Source: Oleiphilaceae bacterium
Lineage (GTDB): Bacteria > Pseudomonadota > Gammaproteobacteria > Pseudomonadales > Oleiphilaceae
DNA: 64,000 nt
Direction: 5' to 3'
Assembly: GCA_018334495.1 (NCBI GenBank)
Contig: JAGXLV010000002.1
Location: 1 to 64,000, forward strand
In this document: one piece after another, positions 36,620-43,496 of the stretch
Layout: every line of letters starts with the position of its first letter
How positions within the stretch are numbered: position 1 is the stretch's first letter
Notes under the pieces: model-generated
What the model was told of the DNA's origin: nothing
The model's input: only the letters and a program-made list of their open reading frames with translations
The model's database searches: none
Program-made: the position numbers and the translations under genes

Positions 36620-37390
36620 TCAGACCGTGAGATAACCGCCGTCCACATTTATGCAGGCACCGGTGGTGTAACTGGAGGCCGCTGAGGCCAGATAAAGCAC
36701 CGTCCCGGCCATTTCGTCCGGATCCGCCATGCGGTACATGGGAATGTGGGCCAAAGCCTGTTTCTTGATGCTCTCGTTCTTGGTCAGGGCGCTGGCGAAC
36801 TTGGTGTCGGTCAGACCCGGTAACAGCGCATTAACCCGCACCTTTTGCGTGCCCAACTCTTTGGCAAAAGCCTTGGTCATGGAAATTACCGCGGCCTTGG
36901 TTATGGAGTAAATGCCCTGGTAATGACCCGGCGCCACGCCGTTCACCGAGGCCACATTGATAATGGCACCACCGCCGCCGGTTTTCATCAGGCGCGCGCC
37001 CCGGGCACACATCAGGAAGTAACCGCGAATATTCACATCAACCGTTTTTTGAAAGGCGCCAAGATCGGTGTCTTCGATCGGACCGAAATGGGGATTGGTG
37101 GCGGCGTTGTTGACGAGGATATCCAGGCGACCATGGCTGTTTTCAACATGGGCCCATATCGCCTCGATCTGATCGATTTCACCGATATGGCAGGCATAGG
37201 CCTCGGCGCTGCCACCAGCCTGCCGGATACTCTCGGCCACGGCGTCACAGGCGTCAATCTTGCGGCTGCTGACGATCACATGGGCGCCGTACCGGGCCAG
37301 GATGCGGGCCGCGCTTTCGCCGATGCCGCGGCTGGCACCGGTAATCAGGGCGATTTTTCCAGTCAGGTCAAACAGGTCTTTGGTGCTCAT
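36620..37390 (-). CDS. Short-chain dehydrogenase/reductase, last gene of the acyl-CoA catabolic operon
   Basis: Classical SDR of 256 residues. The cofactor motif is TGASRGIG, NNAATN is the structural motif, and the catalytic Ser/Tyr/Lys occur as NVASVNG and YSITK. Probably a 3-hydroxyacyl or hydroxy-acid oxidoreductase. Ends in the DGG(Y) pattern GGYLTV. CGGAG precedes ATG 37390. It follows the histidine phosphatase by 52 bases in the minus-strand operon that starts with the acyl-CoA dehydrogenase at 41292. Confidence 0.9.
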   Translation of the reverse strand: MSTKDLFDLTGKIALITGASRGIGESAARILARYGAHVIVSSRKIDACDAVAESIRQAGGSAEAYACHIGEIDQIEAIWAHVENSHGRLDILVNNAATNPHFGPIEDTDLGAFQKTVDVNIRGYFLMCARGARLMKTGGGGAIINVASVNGVAPGHYQGIYSITKAAVISMTKAFAKELGTQKVRVNALLPGLTDTKFASALTKNESIKKQALAHIPMYRMADPDEMAGTVLYLASAASSYTTGACINVDGGYLTV

Positions 37391-37442
37391 GATGCGCTCC
37401 GAAACGGGTTGAAGAAAAGCTGCAAAACGGTTTTGAGATAAC

Positions 37443-38132
37443 TTATCTGAACGTCACCAGGTCCGGGTCTTCCGCTTCCAGGTGACTGTAATTATTGAAC
37501 ACAGAAAGGCTGCGGCGGGATCCGGAATACAACACCCGGGTGACGCTGGCATTGGCAATGACTTCGTTCAGGCCCAACGCGCGCCGGTCAGTCAGCCCCA
37601 GGAGGCTTTGCAAGACAACCGCAATCGGCCCGCCGGACGTCATCACCAGCACATCCGCGCCATCGGCAAACACCAGAATGTGCTCCAGAGCGTTGGCAAC
37701 CCGCTGCCTGAAAGCAGGCCAGGTTTCCCGGTAATCCTCGTCGTACTCGCCGCTGGCCCAGCGTTCCACCGCGCTGACGAAAGCGTCCTGAAACGCCCGC
37801 AGGGGTTGAGACGCTGCCGCCAGCTCACGGGTCATGACAGACCGGTCTGCCCATTCCGGCCGGTAACCCTGAATCACGGCGTTATGGTCAAACTCGTCGA
37901 GACCCATGACCGCCTGCATGGCCGGCAGGGTTCCGGTAAAGCCGGCGGCCAGCGCTTCCACGGTTTCCCGGTGACGCTGAAGGTTGCCACCAAAAACCGC
38001 ACCAGGCTCCACCTTGCCGGACAGCCATCGGCCCAGGACACGGCCCTGCTGCCAGCCTTTCTCCGAAAGCTCGTCGTAATTGGCCTTGCCGAAACTGGCC
38101 TGCCCGTGACGAATCAGATAGAGCGTAGCCAT
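37443..38132 (-). CDS. Histidine phosphatase (phosphoglycerate-mutase-like)
   Basis: Cytoplasmic histidine phosphatase of 229 residues with the canonical start YLIRHGQASFGKANYDELSEKG. Second arginine block FGGNLQRHRETVEAL and the second His region VMTSGGPIAVVL are present; in the latter the usual GH is replaced by SGG, which is odd. ATG 38132 overlaps the kinase stop by one base (TAATG), so translation is coupled to the kinase. This pairing suggests a phosphatase that works on the same phosphorylated acyl intermediates or salvages them; inference only. Confidence 0.88.
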   Translation of the reverse strand: MATLYLIRHGQASFGKANYDELSEKGWQQGRVLGRWLSGKVEPGAVFGGNLQRHRETVEALAAGFTGTLPAMQAVMGLDEFDHNAVIQGYRPEWADRSVMTRELAAASQPLRAFQDAFVSAVERWASGEYDEDYRETWPAFRQRVANALEHILVFADGADVLVMTSGGPIAVVLQSLLGLTDRRALGLNEVIANASVTRVLYSGSRRSLSVFNNYSHLEAEDPDLVTFR

Positions 38133-39196
38133 TACAGGTCGCTGGCCTCGATCAGCGCCAAACAGCGCTTTTCAAGGTACTGAGCAGCATGGCCGAAGGC
38201 GGCAAAACGCTTGTCTTTGGTCTGGCCATGATAGAAACGGTAATAGATCTGCTGGATAATCGCCGCCAGCCGGAACAGACCGTAAATTTCGTAATAATCG
38301 AAGCGGTCAACCTTCAAACCGGACTTTTCCAGGTAATAGTCCGCCACCTGGGCGCGGGTCAGCATGCCCGGACGGTGGGTGGGCTGGCGCCGAAGCATCT
38401 GGAACAGGCCTTCATCGTCGGCCTGCACCCAATAGGCCAGACTGTTGCCCAGATCCATCAGCGGGTCGCCAATGGTGGCCATTTCCCAGTCCAGCACGCC
38501 GATCACTTCGAAAGGGTTATCGGGGTTGAGCACAACATTGTCGAAACGAAAATCGTTGTGGATCACGCACTGGGCCACATCGTCGGGCATTTTGTCCGCA
38601 AGCCAGCTCATGACGGCTTCAAAGTCGCCCACATCGGCGGTTCTGGCCTTGCGGAAGCGGTCACTCCAGCCCCCTATCTGGCGCTCGACATAACCGGCAC
38701 CTTTGCCCAGGTGATCAAGGCCGGCAGCCCTGGCATCAACCTGATGCAGGTCCACCAGCTTGTCGATCACGTTCAGACACAGCTTGCGGGTATCCTGCTC
38801 CCCCAATTCGAGACCCTTGGGAAAGTCCTGGCGTAAAATGATGCCGTTAAGCTGCTCCATCACGTAAAAATCACAACCCAGAACGCGGTGATCGTCACAG
38901 GTGGCGATGATGGCAGGCACATAAGGGTAGACCGGCTTCAGTGCCGCCATCACCCGGGCTTCGCGCAACATGTCGTGGGCGGATTTGGCAATTTTGCCGA
39001 AAGGCGGGCGCCGCAGCACAAAGGTGCAGTCGGGGTAGGCGACCTGGTAGGTGAGATTCGATGCGCCACCGGGGTACTGCTGAATTCGGGGCTCGCCGGT
39101 GAGCCCGGGGATGGTGTTTTTCATGAAGCGGTCCACCACTGCCACATCCAGCGCTTCGCCCTCGCGAACGGTCACGGCCTGATCGATCTGGGTCAT
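38132..39196 (-). CDS. APH-type phosphotransferase (ACAD10/11 kinase-domain-like)
   Basis: Small-molecule kinase of 354 residues with the aminoglycoside phosphotransferase fold. Visible: N-terminal nucleotide part with SNLTYQVAYPDCTFVLRRPPFG, catalytic HNDFRFDNVVLN (Asp and Asn) and the metal site VLDWEMATIGDPLMDLG. In vertebrates this domain is fused to an acyl-CoA dehydrogenase (ACAD10/11) and phosphorylates 4-hydroxyacyl-CoA; bacterial LvaA of the levulinate pathway is related. Here it is a separate gene in an operon with an ACAD11-type dehydrogenase. CAGGAGAAACCGG precedes ATG 39196. Confidence 0.9.
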   Translation of the reverse strand: MTQIDQAVTVREGEALDVAVVDRFMKNTIPGLTGEPRIQQYPGGASNLTYQVAYPDCTFVLRRPPFGKIAKSAHDMLREARVMAALKPVYPYVPAIIATCDDHRVLGCDFYVMEQLNGIILRQDFPKGLELGEQDTRKLCLNVIDKLVDLHQVDARAAGLDHLGKGAGYVERQIGGWSDRFRKARTADVGDFEAVMSWLADKMPDDVAQCVIHNDFRFDNVVLNPDNPFEVIGVLDWEMATIGDPLMDLGNSLAYWVQADDEGLFQMLRRQPTHRPGMLTRAQVADYYLEKSGLKVDRFDYYEIYGLFRLAAIIQQIYYRFYHGQTKDKRFAAFGHAAQYLEKRCLALIEASDL

Positions 39197-39242
39197 TCCG
39201 GTTTCTCCTGATTGCTATTGGTGCAAGGTGCCATGAGCATGC

Positions 39243-40058
39243 TCAGGCACGGCCACCCATCTTTTTCATCCAGCGCTTGCTTTCCTGATGCATGAGCCAG
39301 TCAAACACCTGGGGTGCATGGCGTTTAACCAGCCACATGCGACGCTCTTTGGCATGGGGCAGAACCCAAAAGTTGCCCTCCTCGACCGCCCGGTAAATAT
39401 CGTCTGCGACTTTATCGGCGGTGACGTTCGACCGTTTCATCATCTTGCCCACATTCTGTTGGATGCCGGCAATATCCGAACGCATGGAGGCCACCAGATT
39501 AGTCTGGAAAAACGCCGGGCACACACAGCTGGTGTGAATGCCGAAATCACGAAGCTCCTGATGCAGGGTTTCCGATAGCGCGATCACACCGGCCTTTGAG
39601 ACATTGTAGCTGCTCATCAGCGGCGCAAGCATCAGACCGGCCATGGACGCCACGTTCACGAAAGCACCGGCTTGCTGTTTTTTGAACAGAGGCGTAAAAG
39701 CCTTGCAGCCGCGAACCACCCCGAGAAGGTTGATGTCGAGAACCCACTCCCAGTCGGTCAGGGTGCTGTCCTCAATGGTGCCGGCCGAAGCCACACCCGC
39801 ATTATTGACCACCAGATCAACACCGCCCCATTTCTGCTCAAGCTCCTTGCAGATTTTCTCCAGATCCGTAAGCCGCCGCACATCGCAGTTCACGGAATAG
39901 CCAGTGCCACCCAGGTCATTGATTTCCTTCTCGACATTGGCGCCCTGCTCGGGGTTGATGTCACCAATGCAGACTCTGGCGCCCTCTCGGGCATAACGCA
40001 GGGCGATGGCCCGGCCCAGGCCGCTGGCGCCGCCGGTAATAAAGACTCGCTGGCTCAT
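39243..40058 (-). CDS. Short-chain dehydrogenase/reductase of the acyl-CoA catabolic operon
   Basis: Classical SDR of 271 residues. Cofactor motif TGGASGLG, NNAGVAS, catalytic Ser in NVASMAG and YNVSK. The tail VKRHAPQVFDWLMHQESKRWMKK is basic and might associate with membranes. It probably oxidises or reduces a hydroxyacyl intermediate between the dehydrogenase and kinase steps. It is 22 bases downstream of the acyl-CoA dehydrogenase and 46 bases upstream of the kinase. Confidence 0.9.
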   Translation of the reverse strand: MSQRVFITGGASGLGRAIALRYAREGARVCIGDINPEQGANVEKEINDLGGTGYSVNCDVRRLTDLEKICKELEQKWGGVDLVVNNAGVASAGTIEDSTLTDWEWVLDINLLGVVRGCKAFTPLFKKQQAGAFVNVASMAGLMLAPLMSSYNVSKAGVIALSETLHQELRDFGIHTSCVCPAFFQTNLVASMRSDIAGIQQNVGKMMKRSNVTADKVADDIYRAVEEGNFWVLPHAKERRMWLVKRHAPQVFDWLMHQESKRWMKKMGGRA

Positions 40059-40080
40059 AGTGTCTGTCCCGGTTCCTGAG

Positions 40081-41292
40081 TTATTGAAGATATTTTTTTA
40101 TTTCCAGCTTGGCCACGGTGGCACGATGCACCTCGTCCGGACCGTCCGCCAGACGCAGAACACGGGCGTAGGCAAAAAGTTCTGTCAGGGCGAAATCGTC
40201 ATCGCTGACACCAGCACCGCCATGAATCTGGATGGCCTCATCAACAATCGTCTGCAGCATTTGCGGCACCACCGCCTTGATCATCGCCACCTCGCTCAGG
40301 GCCCCCTTGACGCCCTGGGTATCCAGCAACCAGGCACACTTGAGCGTCAGCAGACGGGCCTGCTCAATGTTCATCCGGGCCTTGGCAATAATATCGGGGT
40401 TGCCACCCAGTTTGGCCAGGGGCCGGCCGAAGGCCTCCCGGCTAAGAGCCCGGCGCATCATCAGCTCCAGTGTGCGTTCGGCAGCACCAATGGCGCGCAT
40501 GCAATGATGCACCCGCCCCGGCCCGAGCCGGCCCTGGGCAATCTCGAAGCCGCGACCGGTGCCGCCGATAATAGCGCTGGCGGGCAGGCGCACATTGTCA
40601 AAGCTGACTTCGCCGTGGCCGTAGGGCTCGTCATAGGAGCCAAAGACCGGCAGCATCCGTTCGACCTTGATGCCGGGCGTATCCAGAGGTACCAGCACCA
40701 TGGAATGGCGCCGGTATTTGTGGGCGTCCGGCTCGGACACCCCCATGAAGATAATCACTTTGCAATCGGGGTGGCCAATACCGGTGCTCCACCACTTGCG
40801 ACCGTTGAGGACAACCTCATCGCCTTCAACTATGGCCGTGGCGGCCATGTTGGTGGCATCGGACGAGGCCACATCCGGTTCGGTCATACAAAAAGCAGAG
40901 CGTAGGTCGGCATTCATCAGCGGTTGCAGCCACTGGGCCTTCTGCTCTTCAGAACCGTAATGGATCAGCACTTCCATGTTGCCGGTGTCCGGGGCGTTGC
41001 AATTGAAGATTTCAGGGGCGATAAAACTCCGACCGGTTTCCTCGGCGATCAGGGCGTAGTCACTGTTCAGAAGCCCGCAGCCGTGTTTGTCATCCGGAAA
41101 AAACATATTCCACAAGCCCCGGGCACGGGCTTTGTCCTTCAACTCCCTTATAACCGGCAGCACCACCCAGCGGTTGTCCTGCGCTGCCAGTTCGGCCCGA
41201 TAAGCTGCCTCCGCCGGCAGGATTTCTTCCTGCATGAAGGCTTTGACCCGGCGAAGATAATCCTGGCCTTTTTCGGAAAGGGTAAAGTCCAT
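40081..41292 (-). CDS. Acyl-CoA dehydrogenase of the ACAD10/11 type
   Basis: FAD acyl-CoA dehydrogenase of 403 residues, first gene of the operon. FAD and substrate blocks: AFCMTEPDVASSDATNM, WWSTGIGHPDCKVIIFMG and IQIHGGAGVSDDD. At the usual catalytic-base position (YEG in classical enzymes) it reads ADGPDEVHR, with Asp for Glu; this matches ACAD11-type enzymes, which convert 4-phosphoacyl-CoA rather than simply dehydrogenating. ATG 41292 with CGGGAGA upstream. Together with the APH-kinase gene it forms a split ACAD10/11 module. Chain-length preference unknown. Confidence 0.92.
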   Translation of the reverse strand: MDFTLSEKGQDYLRRVKAFMQEEILPAEAAYRAELAAQDNRWVVLPVIRELKDKARARGLWNMFFPDDKHGCGLLNSDYALIAEETGRSFIAPEIFNCNAPDTGNMEVLIHYGSEEQKAQWLQPLMNADLRSAFCMTEPDVASSDATNMAATAIVEGDEVVLNGRKWWSTGIGHPDCKVIIFMGVSEPDAHKYRRHSMVLVPLDTPGIKVERMLPVFGSYDEPYGHGEVSFDNVRLPASAIIGGTGRGFEIAQGRLGPGRVHHCMRAIGAAERTLELMMRRALSREAFGRPLAKLGGNPDIIAKARMNIEQARLLTLKCAWLLDTQGVKGALSEVAMIKAVVPQMLQTIVDEAIQIHGGAGVSDDDFALTELFAYARVLRLADGPDEVHRATVAKLEIKKYLQ

Positions 41293-41421: not shown

Positions 41422-42336
41422 ATGCCCCACAACCGGCTCGACCTCAATCTGCTCCATGTTTTCGATACGATTTACCGTGAAGGCAGCCTCACCCGTGCCG
41501 CCGGCGCCCTCTATCTGACGCAGCCCGCGGTCAGCCATGCCCTGGCCCGACTGCGGGAGCATTTTGGCGACAGGTTGTTTATCCGCCAGGGCAATCGCAT
41601 GGTGGCCACTCCCATGGCCAGGCGCTTCGCGGAGTCCATGCGCCCCGGCCTGAGTCAGATCCAGAGCGCCATCAATCAATTTCACGCTTTCGATCCCGGC
41701 ATTCAGCACAAAACCTACTCACTGGCGTTGCGTGACGTTCTGGAATCGACATTTCTGCCGCCACTGATGATGCAACTGGATGATTACCCGGATATCAGGA
41801 TTGCGAGCCAACGGGTGGCCCGACGGAATATGGAAACCCAATTGGCAGCAGGCAAGCTCGATTTCGCGGTGGACGTACTTTTACCAGTCAGCGACCGCAC
41901 CGCTCATGAAAGGCTTCGCAAGGATCAGCTGGTGGTTATTGCCCGCCGGGGTCACCCGATCGCTGAGCGGGGTCTGACCATGGAAAACTATCTGAAGGCC
42001 GAGCATGTGCTCGTGTCGTCCCGGGCCGAAGGGCCGGGCATCGAGGATTTCGAGTTGTCACGGTTAGGGGGCCAGCGCCGCATACGTTTGCGCTGCCAGC
42101 ATTATTACGCAGCCAGCCGAGTGGTGGAGAATACCGATCTTCTGCTCACCATGCCTGAAGCCTATGCCCGGCTGCTCGCTGAGCGCGCCGGCATCCGGAT
42201 TCACCCGGCACCGGCGGAGCTGCCAGGTATCGACGTACATCTGTACTGGCACCGGCCTTACGACCGGGAGCCCGCGCTTATCTGGTTTCGCGGCCAGCTA
42301 CACAAGGTCGCGGGCGGCTCATATAGCGCCGACTGA
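41422..42336 (+). CDS. LysR family transcriptional regulator
   Basis: LysR-type regulator of 304 residues. The N-terminal winged helix is typical (RLDLNLLHVFDTIYREGSLTRAAGALYLTQPAVSHALARLREHFGDRLF region), followed by the effector-binding domain from about residue 90. It is transcribed divergently from the acyl-CoA dehydrogenase/kinase operon and most likely controls it, probably in response to a pathway acid or its CoA ester. CCAGGATAC precedes ATG 41422. The last 18 bases overlap the convergent membrane protein gene. Confidence 0.92.
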   Translation: MPHNRLDLNLLHVFDTIYREGSLTRAAGALYLTQPAVSHALARLREHFGDRLFIRQGNRMVATPMARRFAESMRPGLSQIQSAINQFHAFDPGIQHKTYSLALRDVLESTFLPPLMMQLDDYPDIRIASQRVARRNMETQLAAGKLDFAVDVLLPVSDRTAHERLRKDQLVVIARRGHPIAERGLTMENYLKAEHVLVSSRAEGPGIEDFELSRLGGQRRIRLRCQHYYAASRVVENTDLLLTMPEAYARLLAERAGIRIHPAPAELPGIDVHLYWHRPYDREPALIWFRGQLHKVAGGSYSAD

Positions 42337-42722: not shown

Positions 42723-43496
42723 TCATCGAGTCTGTTCCGGGAACCATGGCTCTGGCAAGGTCTCAAGGCCCGGACGGGCGAAAAGGTAACCCTGATACAA
42801 GCGAATGCCCCGGGCCCGAAACCATTCATACTCTTCTTCGGTTTCGACACCTTCGGCAACAATACGTCCGCCCAGCTCGTTCATCATGGTGATGATGCCA
42901 TTCACAATCGCCTGCTTGTTGGGGGTTTTGTGGATATCGCGCACCAGGGCCATATCAATTTTCAAAAGGTTGGGGGGGCTGTCCACCAATATGTTGTAAC
43001 GTGAGTAACCGGCACCAAAATCGTCCAGCGCAACCTGAAAACCCATTTCTTTATAGGCCTGAATGATGGAAACCAGGTGGTCGATATCGGTAAGTTCTTC
43101 GCCTTCCGTTAGCTCGAAGATGATCTTCCGGGTGTCGAATTTGTAAGTCTTGGCGGCCGCGAGCGTGGTGCGAATACAATTCTCGGCCTTATAGACGGCG
43201 TTGGGCAGGAAGTTGATGCTCAATAACGCCTCCATGCCCAGTTTCGCCGCCAGCTTGACGGCCTTGACCCGACAGATCTGGTCAAATGAGTAACGATTGG
43301 TTTCGTTCACCCGGGACAGTATGCTCCAGGCACTTTCGCCATTGAGCCCGCGCACCAGCGCCTCGTAGGCGTAGACCGAGTTATCGGAAGAATCGATAAT
43401 CGGCTGAAACGCGAAAGTGAACTTGAAGTCCAGACCTTCGCCACAGGCACATTGCTCACAGTGGGACTCATCAAACAGTTGCGTTGACTCTGACAC
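42723..43496 (-). CDS. EAL-domain cyclic-di-GMP phosphodiesterase with N-terminal Cys cluster
   Basis: Single EAL domain of 257 residues that should cleave cyclic di-GMP. All catalytic motifs are present: EALVRG, NFLP (Asn), ELTEGE (Glu), DDFGAGYS, KIDMALVRD (Lys) and EGVETEEE, ending in QGYLFARP. The first 25 residues contain His12, Cys13, Cys16 and Cys18 (HCEQCACGEG), a possible metal or redox site. The start is GTG 43496 with AAGGAT upstream. A short inverted repeat AGACA/TGTCT lies at 43524-43535 before the gene. Confidence 0.9.
   Translation of the reverse strand: MSESTQLFDESHCEQCACGEGLDFKFTFAFQPIIDSSDNSVYAYEALVRGLNGESAWSILSRVNETNRYSFDQICRVKAVKLAAKLGMEALLSINFLPNAVYKAENCIRTTLAAAKTYKFDTRKIIFELTEGEELTDIDHLVSIIQAYKEMGFQVALDDFGAGYSRYNILVDSPPNLLKIDMALVRDIHKTPNKQAIVNGIITMMNELGGRIVAEGVETEEEYEWFRARGIRLYQGYLFARPGLETLPEPWFPEQTR

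Follow-up and report, generated by a model that had tools for sequence, protein, structure and literature searches.

We investigated a stretch of 64,000 nucleotides (nt; the whole stretch is called the window below) from an Oleiphilaceae bacterium (assembly GCA_018334495.1, contig JAGXLV010000002.1). Within it, five minus-strand open reading frames (ORFs) at positions 36620-41292 encode an acyl-CoA dehydrogenase (ACAD), a short-chain dehydrogenase/reductase (SDR), a kinase of the aminoglycoside phosphotransferase (APH) fold, a protein of the histidine phosphatase fold and a second SDR (Table 1). An earlier note on this DNA had described the same five genes in the same order, and direct reading of the ORFs bore this out. 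We interpret the set as an operon that likely breaks down 4-hydroxy acids, in which the kinase is accompanied by a phosphatase with a changed catalytic core.

The five genes are closely spaced, with gaps of 22 nt between the ACAD and the first SDR, 46 nt between this SDR and the kinase, and 52 nt between the phosphatase and the second SDR; the kinase and the phosphatase overlap by 1 nt. Their Pfam scores lie far above the cut-offs, at 168.5 bits for APH and 72.4 bits for His_Phos_1 (cut-off 21.7), alongside three ACAD domains and the two SDRs. The order of a divergent LysR gene followed by ACAD, SDR, kinase, phosphatase and SDR is repeated at high identity in other Marinobacter, indicating that it is not due to chance, and is also found in relatives from other families. 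The LysR gene was identified at many of the related loci, though not all, and copies of the second SDR that are 65-86% identical lie near many of the related kinases. The window's genome consists of 162 contigs with a completeness of 91.5%, and an Rfam search of the window returned zero matches.

Table 1. Features of the operon and its surroundings in the window, with the basis of each assignment.
Feature	Position	Strand	Basis
ACAD, ACAD10/11-LvaC type, 403 aa	40081..41292	-	ORF, Pfam, solved relatives, trees
SDR oxidoreductase, 271 aa	39243..40058	-	ORF, Pfam; NCBIfam NF004196 above cut-off
APH-fold kinase, 354 aa; D215, N220, DWE motif, R78-E79, R172	38132..39196	-	ORF, Pfam, ACAD11 alignment
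Histidine-phosphatase-fold protein, 229 aa; start overlaps kinase stop (TAATG)	37443..38132	-	ORF, Pfam, AlphaFold2, fold search
Second SDR oxidoreductase, 256 aa	36620..37390	-	ORF; NCBIfam NF005446 above cut-off
Divergent LysR-family gene, possible operon regulator	41422..42336	+	ORF, Pfam
Asp383 codon, catalytic-base site of ACAD (Glu in classical ACADs)	40144..40146	-	Direct reading; ACAD11 alignment
His9 codon, nucleophile of phosphatase RHG motif	38106..38108	-	His in 147/147 loci reaching the site
Ser166 codon, place of the superfamily's second catalytic His in phosphatase	37635..37637	-	Alignments; Ser in 148/148 loci

The dehydrogenase and the kinase

The earlier note had proposed that the catalytic base of the dehydrogenase is Asp in place of Glu, and alignment with ACAD11 confirmed this, placing Asp383 within the motif RLADGPDEVHR. 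The protein additionally carries QGRLGPGRVHHCMR, which holds an HCMR motif and an upstream Arg near the FAD. The residues R626, H634, R637 and D753 of ACAD11 have been described as marks that are common to ACAD10/11 and LvaC and absent from other ACADs (PMC12440821). In a phmmer search against solved structures, the best relatives of the window ACAD were 4hr3 (568 bits) and ACAD11 (450 bits), and 1ukw (144 bits) was the sole other solved ACAD to pass the E-value limit of 1e-40. Asp and an HxMR motif were found together in 100 of 101 high-scoring ACADs of related loci, the remaining one ending before the Asp site, and the signature was missing from 39 other ACADs in those loci.

All of our trees were built on chosen rows. 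For the dehydrogenase, a tree of 47 rows placed the window protein, ACAD11 and 4hr3 in one clade (support 100/99), from which nine other ACADs split off (100/98). Since the base site is Gly or Ala in all nine, a second tree of 29 rows was built with eight Glu-site ACADs. Here the window protein, ACAD11, 4hr3 and 14 other Asp-type rows again formed one clade (99/99), and the eight Glu-site and four Gly/Ala-site rows lay outside it; both trees carry a long-branch warning among the outgroup ACADs, and LvaC is not among their rows. Judged by its sequence, the window dehydrogenase belongs to the ACAD10/11-LvaC type. It does not group with the classical Glu-base enzymes, the outcome that the earlier note had said would refute its reading, and an ordinary operon with a Glu-base ACAD is rejected on the motifs and both trees.

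The intact catalytic residues that had been attributed to the kinase were likewise recovered, with D215, N220 and the DWE motif aligned with those of ACAD11. The alignment spans most of the window kinase, and R78-E79 (an Arg beside the alpha-C Glu) and R172 are kept. Two Arg occupy CoA-contact places, the one beside the Glu being only loosely matched, as its index differs from that of the published R86. The closest solved relative of the kinase is 9o56 (277 bits), followed by 3dxp (159 bits) and ACAD11 (148 bits); resistance kinases score far weaker than these three, and the reading as an antibiotic-resistance kinase was rejected.

A tree of 58 kinase rows resolved into three clades, comprising the window kinase and 9o56 (A), ACAD11 and 3dxp (B), and eight kinases that adjoin DUF6285 genes (C). 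Clades A and B are sisters (100/99 and 99/99), with the ACAD11 row on a long branch and LvaA not among the rows. Thus, the description of the operon as ACAD10/11-like holds for the chemistry to be expected of the kinase-dehydrogenase pair, but this tree places the kinase beside the ACAD11-kinase clade as its sister and not within it. The ACAD10/11-LvaC marks in the dehydrogenase, together with the catalytic and CoA-contact residues in the kinase, make degradation of 4-hydroxy acids the best reading of the operon and this chemistry likely.

Two known systems may be compared. The operon resembles ACAD10 and ACAD11 in joining an APH-fold kinase to an Asp-base ACAD of the HCMR type (PMC12440821, PMC11342911), and differs from them in its separate genes, its sister-clade kinase and its histidine phosphatase fold instead of a HAD domain. 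Similarly, it shares a kinase, an LvaC-type ACAD and an SDR with the lva operon of Pseudomonas putida KT2440, as described in PMC6692424. It has a LysR gene instead of the sigma54 regulator LvaR, and adds the phosphatase and a second SDR; one of its two SDRs may correspond to LvaD. No CoA ligase LvaE, LvaR or transporter was found among the five genes and the divergent LysR gene, and no gene of LvaB size adjoins the kinase, there being no room for one in the 46-nt upstream gap or at the stop, which the phosphatase start overlaps.

A phosphatase with an altered active site and its kinase partners

The AlphaFold2 model of the phosphatase (pLDDT 96.3) has an ordinary branch-1 fold, matching PGAM5 with a Z score of 22.4 (173 residues, root-mean-square deviation 2.3) and PhoE with 21.9. 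The protein shares with the branch-1 members PGAM5, PhoE and CobC the fold (Z 17.8 to 22.4), the RHG motif, the second Arg and the Glu. CobC keeps the second catalytic His (in T-H-G-G), whereas the window phosphatase has Ser at this place, S166 aligning onto the second His of CobC and of other solved members. The equivalent His153 of Rv2135c was called fully conserved in the alignment of the paper concerned (PMC3866925). We additionally found the second His retained in 3/3 other PF00300 proteins of the window's genome, and in all 12 readable non-family members from relatives, a motif search giving no reading at 7 more loci.

We aligned 148 loci of the phosphatase family, some genomes being counted twice (e.g. 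L042 with L108, and L056 with L175). These comprised 68 from a search of 145 genomes belonging to the order, with the full-length window phosphatase as query, and 80 from a scan seeded with the peptide RHGQASFG, the best of at least 581 confirmed loci; the top twelve genome matches among these 80 are all Marinobacter. Position 166 is Ser in 148/148 loci. R8, H9, R53 and E80 are invariant in the 147/147 loci that reach these sites, and position 10 is Gly in 144 loci and Ala in 3. The RHG motif is true by construction in the 80 seeded loci; among the loci not seeded by the peptide, R8, H9, R53 and E80 are present in 67/67 that reach the sites, which speaks for a functional phosphate site. That a C-terminal His (H217) compensates for the loss was considered and dropped, as ordinary members also show LN...HL there, and as the position is Phe or Tyr in 13 of the 148 Ser-type loci and in one annotated record.

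The earlier note had regarded the phosphatase as an unusual extra part of the operon. This did not survive the survey of the 145 genomes, in which the phosphatase emerged as a common partner of such kinases. Taking kinases of at least 45% identity to that of the window as close, we identified a same-strand phosphatase within 5 kb for 30 of the 36 close kinases and for 19 of the 82 that are more distant; these counts come from whole tables, and the distant-kinase loci that were examined singly were chosen, not random. From the phosphatase side, 49 of 68 matches lie with a kinase, against a chance expectation of about 0.14 (assuming 4-Mb genomes), and none on the opposite strand. The linkage has a Fisher p of 2e-22, a value that ignores kinship. 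Counting from where the match ends, the phosphatase follows the kinase at no more than 82 nt in 20 of these 30 close cases and at 189 and 232 nt in two, and it lies upstream in the other eight.

This partnership extends well beyond the order. Among the best 80 of the 581 loci, a kinase was found within 7 kb in 49, only an LvaC-type ACAD in 15 and neither in 16, and the kinase-linked loci span Pseudomonadota, Myxococcota, Actinomycetota and Thermodesulfobacteriota. Four plasmid records of four classes, from Azospirillum, Pseudoalteromonas, Streptomyces and Deinococcus (hand-picked from 20 listed of 245), have the same neighbours by others' annotation and Ser at the site in 4/4. The Deinococcus record adds Deinococcota, bringing to five the phyla in which the phosphatase lies with a kinase. 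In a tree of 67 phosphatase rows, kinase linkage occurs in both halves of the family, and Shewanella, Colwellia and Thalassotalea have a kinase of the distant type together with a phosphatase of the window's half, indicating an exchange of partners. The linkage in several gene orders and the exchanged partners suggest that the two proteins are linked by function and not by shared ancestry alone.

Possible roles of the phosphatase

From the anatomy of the operon, the residues and families of its proteins and their conserved co-localisation, we infer activities, a substrate and a direction for the effect of the phosphatase. The kinase would phosphorylate the 4-hydroxyl group of a 4-hydroxyacyl-CoA, and the LvaC-type dehydrogenase would remove the phosphate using FAD and its Asp base, yielding a 2-enoyl-CoA. 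For the SDRs, the probable role is either to form this 4-hydroxyacyl-CoA out of 4-oxo compounds or to act at a later step of the pathway. The Ser-type phosphatase would most likely hydrolyse phosphorylated acyl-CoAs or acids that accumulate, or that the dehydrogenase cannot use, and kinase and phosphatase would jointly set the level of the phosphorylated intermediate. We give a probability of about one half to this joint reading, in which 4-hydroxyacyl-CoA enters beta-oxidation by the ACAD10/11-LvaA/LvaC route with a Ser-type phosphatase opposing the kinase.

A comparable arrangement is known in PPIP5K/Vip1, in which a histidine phosphatase that likewise lacks the second His is coupled to an opposing kinase (PMC11836120). 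The phosphatase domain of these proteins is active and highly specific, has a poorly conserved Lys at the second-His position, and opposes the kinase domain of the same protein; it differs from the window phosphatase in being phytase-like, in its fusion to the kinase and in acting on inositol pyrophosphates (PMC11836120). Because the nucleophile His, the Arg and the Glu are retained, a specific phosphatase on the PPIP5K model is favoured for the window operon.

A regulator on the model of the ACAD10 HAD domain has also to be considered, because one catalytic residue is lost throughout the family. The Ser-type protein would then be a pseudophosphatase that hydrolyses nothing and instead, on binding phosphate or the phosphorylated intermediate, holds the kinase back or activates it, making the protein a bacterial counterpart of the ACAD10 HAD domain and a replacement of LvaB, the small LvaA-binding protein. 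The likeness to ACAD10 lies in a phosphatase fold whose active site is incomplete and which is tied to a kinase; the HAD domain has an incomplete DxD motif, one catalytic Asp being lost, and its phosphatase activity is negligible, yet it restrains the kinase (PMC11342911). The replacement of the second His by Ser in every aligned locus fits such a role, as does the position of the Pseudomonas citronellolis phosphatase gene between the lvaA and lvaC homologues, with no lvaB found in the cluster (PMC6692424). Flea acid-phosphatase-like proteins without the catalytic His are binding proteins, although those tested had lost the first His too (PMC10728186). The invariance of R8, H9, R53 and E80 where these sites are reached is harder to reconcile with a pure binding protein, in which some drift would be expected, and the second His is dispensable in PPIP5K (PMC11836120). 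We therefore regard a pseudophosphatase, and its equivalence to the HAD domain and LvaB, as unlikely, albeit far from negligible.

The levulinate cluster of P. citronellolis LA18T likewise holds a kinase, a histidine phosphatase (218 aa), an LvaC homologue and an SDR, and no lvaB in the published description; it differs from the window operon in the LvaR-, LvaE2- and transporter-type genes alongside, and its phosphatase is known here by description only (PMC6692424). Habe et al. suggested that this phosphatase may dephosphorylate 4-phosphovaleryl-CoA (PMC6692424), which would make it a forward-pathway enzyme that acts on 4-phosphoacyl-CoA in place of the dehydrogenase. The conserved linkage of kinase and phosphatase would suit this, but ACAD10/11 carry out phosphoelimination on their own (PMC12440821, PMC11342911), the window ACAD retains the residues that this requires, and plain hydrolysis would merely regenerate the 4-hydroxy compound. 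Given the complete phosphoelimination signature of the dehydrogenase, a forward role for the phosphatase is less likely, and we consider it very improbable.

A histidine phosphatase in a levulinate cluster has thus already been published for one Pseudomonas (PMC6692424). Our literature searches, which were limited and had most subscription journals outside their scope, returned neither the changed residue nor its multi-phylum breadth, and no paper combining a histidine phosphatase, an aminoglycoside phosphotransferase and an acyl-CoA dehydrogenase in an operon. Within these limits, the loss of the second His in a widespread kinase-linked phosphatase family is apparently unreported.

Several observations weigh against 4-hydroxyacyl-CoA degradation under the control of an opposing phosphatase. 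We know of no Ser-type member with an established activity, and loss of a catalytic His can abolish activity. A CoA ligase is missing from the five genes of the operon, and the kinase falls outside the ACAD11-kinase clade. No kinase is nearby for 19 of the 68 phosphatase matches in the 145 genomes, nor within 7 kb in 31 of the best 80 of the 581 loci, 16 of these 31 being also without an LvaC-type ACAD, and in one phosphatase clade, which has eight rows in the tree, no member is linked to a kinase. A phosphatase within 5 kb is similarly missing for 6 of the 36 close kinases, one of the six being on a 4.4-kb contig, and a further close kinase lacks the phosphatase at L232. Marinobacter locus L113 retains the phosphatase along with the two SDRs, but its examined stretch gave no match to a kinase or an ACAD, and in 4 of 5 Alcanivorax-type loci (L169, L170, L171 and L177) the phosphatase lies beside an SDR with no kinase; L113 and these four loci are perhaps remnants, or represent a different use. 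As phosphatases occur without a kinase, the phosphatase may act on a different substrate or on a wider range of them. A missing partner may also be encoded elsewhere in the genome.

Seven loci in one family, taken as Pseudomonadaceae (L217 and L228-L233), were examined for the lva operon and gave no phosphatase match. Four of these have an ACAD-SDR-kinase set and one an ACAD-kinase pair, and two are without a kinase match.

The chemistry of ACAD10/11 was established in mammals during 2024-2025, the lva operon serving as the bacterial model, and operons of the type described here suggest that the pathway is common in bacteria. They offer a natural and testable system for asking why a phosphatase fold with an incomplete active site travels with a kinase. 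Tentatively, a dedicated family of histidine phosphatases that lost the second His could restrain 4-hydroxyacyl-CoA kinases across at least five phyla, each pair of kinase and phosphatase setting the level of the CoA-bound phosphate intermediate; this would have arisen independently of the ACAD10 HAD domain and of PPIP5K, a generalisation that we hold to be possible rather than probable. The annotation "histidine phosphatase family protein" can conceal that a family has an altered catalytic core.

Neighbouring genes and related loci

We identified strictosidine-synthase/SMP-30-type genes on the same strand, 0.7-2.7 kb downstream of the phosphatase start, in nine related loci (L066, L139, L164, L046, L047, L048, L061, L145 and L153). 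A tenth case lies 5.9 kb from the phosphatase start in a kinase-free locus; one protein of this lactonase-like set was placed by Pfam (strictosidine synthase, SMP-30) and the other nine by BLAST. Lactonases are among the proteins of the strictosidine-synthase/SMP-30 fold, and 4-hydroxy acids in cyclic form are gamma-lactones; these neighbours are thus a hint in favour of 4-hydroxy acids as the substrate. In other related loci, the downstream genes include alpha/beta hydrolases or CoA ligases. The clustering of neighbours was muddied by shadow ORFs, and the counts of downstream genes rest on a follow-up with named queries. The window operon itself has no lactonase-like, alpha/beta hydrolase, CoA ligase or SCP2 gene.

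At four loci of one family, probably Pseudomonadaceae (L052, L054, L058 and L060), the genes of the Ser-type phosphatase and the kinase are separated by an SCP2-family gene, with the LvaC-type ACAD located elsewhere in the genome. A lipid carrier in this position would be consistent with a kinase and operon that serve another hydroxyacyl-CoA, of different chain, ring or hydroxyl position and e.g. lipid- or steroid-derived. The same may be said of the kinase clade, sister to that of ACAD11, and of four loci (L069, L070, L072 and L074) with other-type ACAD pairs and no LvaC-type enzyme in the examined stretch. The window ACAD carries the complete signature for 4-phosphoacyl-CoA, which argues against this, and a different substrate seems improbable for the window operon.

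Ser-type phosphatases were found near other-type ACAD pairs at L189, L194 and L197 as well as at the four loci just named, and these pairs are reminiscent of the ACAD pairs of steroid degradation. At L194, the ORFs of the phosphatase and of the isocitrate dehydrogenase kinase/phosphatase AceK share 1 nt. Near the operon in the window, an EAL-domain protein is encoded on the minus strand at 42723-43496, with no sign of membership.

DUF6285 genes, found beside the kinases of clade C, adjoin an APH-type kinase in 19/19 loci of the 145 genomes, and 0/19 lie within 5 kb of a phosphatase match (positions compared by eye). An identification of LvaB with DUF6285 could not be confirmed. The long ACADs of five DUF6285 loci are only 29-38% identical to the window ACAD, one of the five being without the Asp/HCMR signature, so LvaB may be something else. 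The window's genome has a locus of this kind on contig C105 (L253, 1631-4208), where a DUF6285 gene and an APH-type kinase from a different clade accompany an ACAD that carries Asp and HCMR and is 35% identical to that of the window.

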